Under the pieces are notes generated by a model. The model did not search any database. It saw only the letters and a list, made by a program, of their open reading frames with translations, and had not been told where the DNA came from. Source: Haliclystus octoradiatus (lineage: Eukaryota > Cnidaria > Staurozoa > Stauromedusae > Haliclystidae). Taken from it: a stretch of DNA of 64,000 nt. The DNA is taken from NCBI GenBank assembly GCA_916610825.1, contig OU744448.1:35239993-35303992 (forward strand), read 5' to 3'. This document shows, in pieces, positions 31,504 to 32,120 of the stretch (its first letter is position 1; each line of letters begins with the position of its first letter). The position numbers and the translations under genes were made by a program.

Positions 31504-31862
31504 TAATAATAATAATAATAATAATAATAATAATAATAATAATAATAATAATAATAATAATAATAATAATAATAATAATAATAATAATAATAATAATAAT
31601 AATAATAATAATAATAATAATAATAATAATAATAATAATAATAATAATAATAATAATAATAATAATAATAATAATAATAATAGTAATAATAATAATAATA
31701 ATAATAATAATAATAATAATAATAATAATAATAATAATAATAATAATAATAATAATAATAATAATAATAATAATAATAATAATAATAATAATAATAATAA
31801 TAATAATAATAATAATAATAATAATAATAATAATAATAATAATAATAATAATAATAATAATA
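31503..31862. repeat. (TAA)n microsatellite, about 360 bp
   Basis: About 120 triplets with one interruption (TAGTAA) near 31681. It joins the 31.0-kb inverted-repeat element to the twin-hammerhead palindrome without spacer. Confidence 0.99.
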
Positions 31863-31889
31863 ATGGAGTCAAAGACTACGCATTCATTT

Positions 31890-31932
31890 TCTGTAACTTA
31901 AAGTTTCTCGCTTTATGCGATCATCAGACAGA
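31890..31932 (-). ncRNA. Type I hammerhead ribozyme, minus-strand copy
   Basis: It is an exact mirror of the plus-strand copy: CTGATGA lies at 31921-31927 read on the minus strand, followed by TCGC-ATAAA-GCGA and GAAA. Predicted cleavage follows GUU at about 31895. Confidence 0.65.
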
Positions 31933-31962
31933 TACTATAAAGCGAATACCATCGGAATAGTA

Positions 31963-32005
31963 TCTGTCTGATGATCGCATAAAGCGAGAAACTTTAAGTT
32001 ACAGA
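31963..32005 (+). ncRNA. Type I hammerhead ribozyme, plus-strand copy
   Basis: All core elements are present in order: stem I strand TCTGT (31963-31967), CTGATGA (31968-31974), stem II TCGC/GCGA with loop ATAAA (31975-31987), GAAA (31988-31991), stem III ACTT/AAGT around one T (31991-31999), the H17 position T (32000; triplet GUU), then the stem I partner ACAGA (32001-32005). Helices I and II pair perfectly. The one-nucleotide stem III loop implies dimeric folding, as reported for small-stem-III animal hammerheads. Cleavage activity is untested. Confidence 0.7.
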
Positions 32006-32120
32006 AAATGAATGCGTAGTCTTTGACTCCATTATTATTATTATTCACGCTCTGTCAAATGACATCGAGCACTATATCAACTGCTGTTAGATACCATATC
32101 ATCATTATTATTATTACATT

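Follow-up and report, generated by a model that had tools for sequence, protein, structure and literature searches.

What kind of element leaves two back-to-back hammerhead ribozymes, one on each strand, inside a perfect palindrome? The question is raised by a locus in a 64 000-nucleotide stretch of Haliclystus octoradiatus DNA (contig OU744448.1; the whole stretch is referred to here as the window), where a sequence-only reading had noticed a perfect 77 bp palindrome. Judged from its sequence and that of its relatives, the palindrome is real, as are both hammerheads. The arms (31850–31938 and 31957–32045) are 89 nt each, 100% complementary and separated by an 18 nt spacer; the outer portion of each is (AAT)n/(ATT)n, and the 77 bp figure holds after most of this microsatellite is excluded. 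Both strands carry CTGATGA, TCGC/GCGA, GAAA, the tiny stem III, the GUU triplet and TCTGT/ACAGA, as had been read.

From left to right, an (AAT)n microsatellite, the target on the side without a tail (31502–31864), continues into the left arm. The 74 nt core of this arm (31865–31938, − strand), with no tail at its outer end, holds a type I hammerhead (31886–31936, − strand) with its predicted scissile bond at 31895/31894. An 18 nt junction filler (31939–31956), which differs from those of other palindromes, separates it from the 74 nt right arm (31957–32030, + strand) and its type I hammerhead (31959–32009, + strand); here the predicted bond is 32000/32001, in agreement with the earlier reading. 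To the right of this arm lie (ATT)5 (32031–32045, + strand), at the end of which the cDNA without a tail would have started, and a 78 nt tail (32046–32123, + strand) that has no counterpart at the left arm and at the 3′ end of which the tailed cDNA would have started. An (ATA)n microsatellite (32124–32281) forms the target on the tail side, and the target duplication of this insertion is hidden by the microsatellite.

Assignment to Penelope-like elements

The palindrome is a head-to-head insertion of a Penelope-like element (PLE), lacking an ORF, into an AT-rich microsatellite, and each 74 nt arm is the core of the PLE terminal repeat (pLTR). The PLE is present in hundreds of copies in the 262 Mb genome (33 contigs): the proposed copy-number check, made with a 27 nt piece of the core, found 398 + 433 places with at most three mismatches and none for the reversed control. 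Among the first 100 of these 831 places, outward-facing arm pairs lie from ∼40 nt to ∼2.9 kb apart, and copies on the same strand are spaced by 2523–2526 bp. Locus L039 contains a 740-codon open frame between two direct arms, plus an inverted 5′-truncated copy, and L040 and L041 have the same layout. The tandem unit that is flanked by arms and holds this frame is 2523 bp long. Such long copies show unequal 5′ truncation, and the arms seen in the palindrome also terminate PLE copies of up to several kilobases.

The product of the 740-codon frame contains YRDDGL (reverse transcriptase-like) and GIY-YIG-like motifs, which we take to be those of PLEs. As the 740-residue protein found no match in Pfam (E up to 10) or the PDB (E up to 1), the assignment rests on layout, namely on tandem pLTRs, a head-to-head inverted pLTR, a tail at one end, AT-rich targets and a hammerhead in the pLTR, which together point to a PLE. 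Tandem and head-to-head inverted pLTRs are both found, the tail stands at the 3′ end of one inverted pLTR in 100 of 102 insertions, and the targets are AT-rich throughout the sampled loci.

The lead towards PLEs given by the sequence-only reading was therefore right, the palindrome being a head-to-head pLTR pair of a PLE with a 740-codon frame in its longer copies. A self-standing twin-ribozyme repeat or retrozyme is not what is found; the locus is one among many such pairs, and its arms are inverted rather than in the direct repeat of a retrozyme. The same reading had known of no description of a palindromic unit with one ribozyme per strand. The outward-facing ribozymes are real, but they are expected from known PLE anatomy, since head-to-head pLTRs with junction palindromes (PMC3846280, partial text) and minimal hammerheads in PLE pLTRs (PMC6155905 and PMC7761336, partial texts) have already been described.

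Conservation of the hammerhead

A loose hammerhead pattern matches the window 17 times, compared with a mean of 5.05 in shuffled sequence, and 17 was reached by one of 100 shuffles; alone this is modest evidence, and the case stands on the family. Model R1, built from ten segments (alignment A1), gave 153 matches at E 0.05 in 57 sources comprising 241 518 bases, of which 150 were aligned and 61 are distinct. Both window hammerheads are recognized by R1 and share the constraint of the family; the score of 72.3 bits is that of a sequence belonging to the training set.

Across the 61 distinct copies the hammerhead stems are paired in 86.8% of cells, compared with 22–47% when the stems are slid. 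Two-sided stem changes number 53, compared with 23.3 in shuffles, and occur in eight of the 12 pairs, in an alignment that is fitted to R1 and leans towards the model; the ten A1 sequences alone give weaker support in the same direction. The three stems are kept by compensatory change, with stem III pairs hardly varying, pair 10.1/11.1 unpaired in 28 of 61 copies and the outermost stem I pair unpaired in 32 of 60. Every core column except position 7 keeps a single base in 57–61 of the 61 distinct rows. Position 7 varies (T in 37, A in 19 and G in five) and position 17 is A in 36, T in 22, C in two and G in one, G being avoided; both agree with the rules for hammerheads, which allow any base at position 7 and any but G at position 17. 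The invariant CUGANGA...GAAA core and H17 of a type I hammerhead are thus present, and the observation that the core bases are intact extends to the relatives, which keep exactly these bases.

The Rfam search that had been suggested as a check went the other way, with no hit in the window at the gathering cut-offs and no Hammerhead hit in 31800–32130 at E 10. The matches returned for that interval at E 10 were mainly to microRNA precursors, all below cut-off, as expected of a long hairpin. Locus L060, which was outside the R1 building set, scores 33.0 bits with R1 and 28.6 bits with Rfam Hammerhead_1 (cut-off 34); this link between the two models is suggestive only, because 11 of 14 control genomes likewise give Rfam hammerhead hits below the cut-off. 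Another hammerhead-like repeat family, CTGATGAGTCCC...GGACGAAAC, is found at L058, L059, L061 and L064, with a best Hammerhead_1 score of 30.9 bits, also below cut-off.

A transcript of the locus had been thought able either to self-cleave or to fold into a hairpin. Folding prediction supports the hairpin (−128.6 kcal/mol) and disfavours the ribozyme fold: the 51 nt hammerhead core has −7.8 kcal/mol (z −0.78), and stem III is absent from its predicted fold. The transcript would be expected to form a hairpin rather than a ribozyme, and little ribozyme activity is therefore expected from the window copy.

One tail per insertion

A tail at one inverted pLTR has been published as an optional feature (PMC3846280, partial text). 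Among the 102 head-to-head insertions examined here (101 independent), 100 have one tail, two have none and none has a tail at both ends; several of the tails were read by eye. The initial loci contained 50 adjacent outward arm pairs, with a tail on one end in 48 and on neither in two. Four of the 50 were left out: L007:676, with no tail seen and arms of two subfamilies; L066:4051, also with arms from different subfamilies; window:46262, with arms at 84 and 100%; and L070:5554, in which the script saw no tail and the locus stops 25 nt past the arm, these 25 nt being the start of a tail. The retained pairs have exactly one tail in 46 of 46 cases (27 right and 19 left).

Three further samples gave one tail in 20 of 20, in 15 of 15 (the diverged tail of L142 was missed by the script and found by eye) and, read by eye, in 11 of 13. 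In the last, L123 has a tail on neither side, L132 has none and its right arm is interrupted by unrelated DNA, and L131 was scored as tailed because its right arm passes directly into tail sequence. The flanks of L113 (C8:13727425) and L114 (C5:5876865), in the sample of 20, are identical and the two count as one insertion; they lie in opposite orientation and represent a segmental duplication or an assembly duplicate.

A second PLE-like family lies head-to-head in a TAA array at 30500–31501 of the window, with a 30 nt tail at the left end only and a hammerhead-like motif at 30566–30606 (− strand) and 31426–31466 (+ strand); it has many copies in the genome. One tail was found in all eight pairs of this family (seven fetched pairs, picked because both ends appeared in the hit list, and the window pair). 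Target duplications are readable in this family only, where they were seen by eye as ∼9–12 bp repeats in six of the eight pairs (in non-microsatellite targets, and imperfect by a mismatch in one), such as ATTAAATAACAT around L088/L089. A head-to-head pair is thus a single insertion. Across families the tail is about 30–80 nt long, ∼80 nt in the main family and 30 nt in the second.

The strand of the TAA array was considered as the determinant of the tail side and rejected, as both arrangements occur: the window palindrome, L042 and L045 are oriented one way and L039, L041, L043, L046 and L047 the opposite way, while L040 sits in (TA)n.

The window holds other elements of related appearance. 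At 36382–36500 the arms of an old and diverged head-to-head pair resemble hammerheads (R1 26.4 and 33.3 bits), and there is an apparent decayed tail on the left only. At 46192–46537 a diverged tailed arm (46262–46336, − strand) lies opposite a terminal fragment of the main subfamily (46502–46537, + strand), with a TAA array between them. An element at 48690–49240 with inverted ends TATTTGACCGGCAG / CTGCCGGTCAAATA adjoins TAA arrays and, by eye, is perhaps a DNA transposon.

Arm starts at the probable native end and junction filler

In 33 short pairs (66 arms) the match starts at arm position 1 in 48 arms and at position 2 in one. For 12 arms it begins at query positions 6–8; these carry leaders of other subfamilies that diverge from the query, and their true starts were left unscored. 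Five arms start internally, at positions 9, 11, 11, 22 and 25. Six of the 48 position-1 arms match 4 nt more upstream; a second RNA start may lie there, and the 5′ end is possibly not single. In long copies a constant TATATTTTTCATT-like stretch precedes position 1. These common starts suggest that the RNA 5′ end is probably near arm position 1, just before the hammerhead, and position 1 would then be the transcription start. A TATA-driven start at position 1 was considered, and the TATA-like stretch seems too close for it.

The centres of 24 palindromes, collected as exact matches to the search patterns, comprise 23 different sequences and are not PLE loop sequence; the one common centre is that of C1:6821454 and C11:3653800, in opposite orientation. 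Subfamily A provides 14 fillers that are 8 nt or longer; 54% of their bases fall in 6-mers present in the arms (mean 17% and maximum 37% in 1000 shuffles), and the matching 6-mers come mostly from the innermost 20 nt of the arms. The filler looks like a product of templated end joining.

Arm starts at the predicted scissile bond

Samples 1 and 2 were found by hammerhead sequence, among which insertions starting at the cut are undetectable, and such insertions (arms starting at position 45) were sought separately. All pattern lists comprise exact matches. Patterns starting at the bond, which favour it by design, gave six pairs in subfamily A and five in subfamilies C/D. The fairer count comes from a pattern starting 5 nt further in, which gave 23 pairs, three of them already known; the subfamily A control added one, for a total of 32. 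That control, which found two pairs and missed two cut/cut pairs that fit its gap, has little power.

Both arms begin at the predicted bond or 1–2 nt past it in nine of the 32 pairs (C2:17876639, C4:25231628, C5:13825115, C4:13718329, C4:23992108, C8:8263315, C8:17989609, C8:19706886 and C4:6684346); matches of 1–2 nt past the bond may be chance. Another nine have a junction in common: one arm reaches as far as the bond, the other stops 3 nt short of its own, and a 2 nt AC/GT overlap (microhomology) joins them. Seven are of subfamily C and two of subfamily D, and they are separate events because their flanks and tail sides differ. Eight pairs have just one arm within 2 nt of the bond, including C1:16819274, where the arm resumes after a mismatch and which is hence no real start. 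Five have no end at the bond and one (C4:6578147) was left unscored. The window fragment at 46502–46537 was also considered as a start at the cut site and rejected, as it begins 5–6 nt upstream. The recurrence of ends at this nucleotide suggests that the PLE hammerhead sometimes cuts RNA in living cells.

Proposed insertion mechanism and its alternatives

The palindrome is best explained, and we consider it likely, as a minimal PLE insertion made by two-ended priming at adjacent sites, run-off of the cDNAs at the RNA 5′ end and joining. A staggered cut in the AT-rich microsatellite would leave two 3′ ends, both of which would prime reverse transcription within the 5′ pLTR of the PLE RNA. The first priming site would lie where the (AUU) run ends and the second ∼80 nt downstream. 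Two adjacent start sites, one for each 3′ end, would leave exactly one end tailed. Both cDNAs would then run off the RNA 5′ end. In the window palindrome this would be the native end, which lies shortly before the hammerhead; as the arms reach it, the template was presumably uncut. In other insertions both cDNAs end at the scissile bond, as expected of a self-cleaved template. Finally, the cDNA ends would be joined through short, often templated filler to give inverted arms, both the order of the steps and the joining pathway being putative.

In vitro, cleavage by the anole PLE protein falls at ATT, both strands are extended, and synthesis begins internally at two neighbouring sites, the spacing of which equals the tail (PMC11167929, partial text). 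The scars described here agree with this assay and would mean, in addition, that each insertion employs both sites, each of them once. The anole assay showed no preference of either strand for a start site and no homology between the start and the target (PMC11167929, in the text available), whereas here the start without a tail is at an (AUU) run that could base-pair with one of the strands of a TAA array. The same study reports no RNA reads starting or ending at the cut site. Other observations that count against the scheme are L123 and L132, which have no tail, the one pair with a native and a cut start (C10:299290) and the six arms matching 4 nt upstream of position 1.

In a more specific form of the two-ended reading, a single RNA is copied twice, each start site being used once, so that the palindromes archive native and hammerhead-cut 5′ ends, with cleavage in vivo and cut RNAs as templates. 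We hold this to be evenly balanced. Subfamily A has 24 native/native pairs and three cut/cut pairs; native/cut pairs number none among its eight asymmetric places (compared by eye, two being one duplicated locus), where by our own arithmetic independent choice of template would predict about five. Two places at C1:29797381 and C1:29850548, ∼53 kb apart, have an identical asymmetric junction and are probably one duplicated locus. In subfamilies C/D one of 17 asymmetric places is native/cut (C10:299290). Taken together with the slightly closer likeness of arms within an insertion (below), these comparisons favour, without proving, one RNA per insertion.

Two-ended priming could also use two RNAs, one per strand, with the difference in tails arising from asymmetry of a protein dimer; we regard this as possible but doubtful. 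It agrees with the extension of both strands in vitro and the predicted dimer of the protein (PMC11167929, partial text), and with the single native/cut pair at C10:299290. The arms within an insertion are, moreover, only slightly more alike than those of different insertions (0.48 compared with 0.65 differences; permutation 0.012; 25 of 28 pairs scored), a likeness that later conversion between arms could also cause. The lack of native/cut pairs in subfamily A argues against it.

The starts at position 45 might instead reflect a second transcription start or a stall of the reverse transcriptase at the folded hammerhead, which appears unlikely. The bond in subfamily A is T|A, usable by an initiator, and the anole hammerhead cut in vitro only with protein and was dispensable for insertion (PMC11167929, partial text). 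However, a stall should precede the copying of stem I, the 3′ strand of which is fully copied here; the identical nucleotide is used in subfamilies with a preceding T or A; and it is the one predicted by the covarying fold.

Self-priming, in which the 3′ end of an antisense PLE transcript folds back to prime copying of the transcript itself and the resulting head-to-head hairpin is then inserted, was proposed in PMC3846280 (partial text) and accounts for head-to-head palindromes in general; the long copies with unequal 5′ truncation could likewise be hairpins with large loops. It predicts tails on both ends or on neither, whereas exactly one is found in 100 of 102 insertions, and none of the 23 different junction sequences seen in 24 short palindromes is PLE loop sequence, which makes it improbable. 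Multiplication of the palindrome as a unit, as a foldback or MITE at the DNA level, might be suggested by its short inverted arms and hundreds of copies; it is very improbable given that the centres of copies differ, the ends are asymmetric with one tail and its arms also terminate PLE copies of up to several kilobases.

Comparison with known systems

Of the features described, pLTRs arranged head to head, a tail and a minimal hammerhead were already known from PLEs. A search of the open-licence literature, outside which most subscription papers lie, found neither the one-tail count nor insertion ends at the hammerhead bond described. The 2024 biochemical study left later insertion steps for validation (PMC11167929, as far as its available text goes). 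From head-to-head scars alone one can read the 5′ ends of the RNAs that were copied and the way in which both ends were made, and through the one-tail count a feature called 'optional' becomes a rule, open to test, on two start sites and two strands.

The family resembles the Pen families of Adineta vaga (PMC3846280) and Poseidon of the anole (PMC11167929), as described in partial texts, in its direct and inverted pLTRs, head-to-head junctions, tail at one inverted pLTR, AT-rich targets, pLTR hammerhead and target duplications of ∼10 bp. It differs from them in that most sampled short insertions consist of pLTR only, with no ORF, and in that arms start at the native end and at the hammerhead bond. 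The tail is ∼80 nt (30 nt in the second family), compared with published lengths of 31 and 30–40 nt. Unlike in known endonuclease-containing PLEs, the reverse transcriptase and GIY-YIG assignments here rest on short motifs, profile search having given no match.

The hammerhead itself shares a short stem III, a position in the pLTR and an intact core with minimal PLE hammerheads, but stem III of the main subfamily has three pairs and a 3 nt loop, and the evidence for cutting comes from insertion ends. Work by Cervera in 2014 and Lunse in 2017 is said to have described minimal type I PLE hammerheads with these same three properties. Metazoan and plant retrozymes are likewise short non-coding retrotransposed units with hammerheads; they are direct repeats that give circular RNA, whereas a transcript of the present head-to-head units has a single sense ribozyme.

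R2 carries an HDV-like ribozyme near the 5′ end of its RNA, is primed on one strand and has its 5′ junction set by the ribozyme. The PLE described here is similar in having a self-cleaving ribozyme near the 5′ end of the RNA of a target-primed retrotransposon; it differs in the ribozyme and the enzyme, and most of the sampled templates appear uncut. If one RNA serves both ends, PLE insertion would be unlike the one-strand target-primed insertion of R2 and L1.
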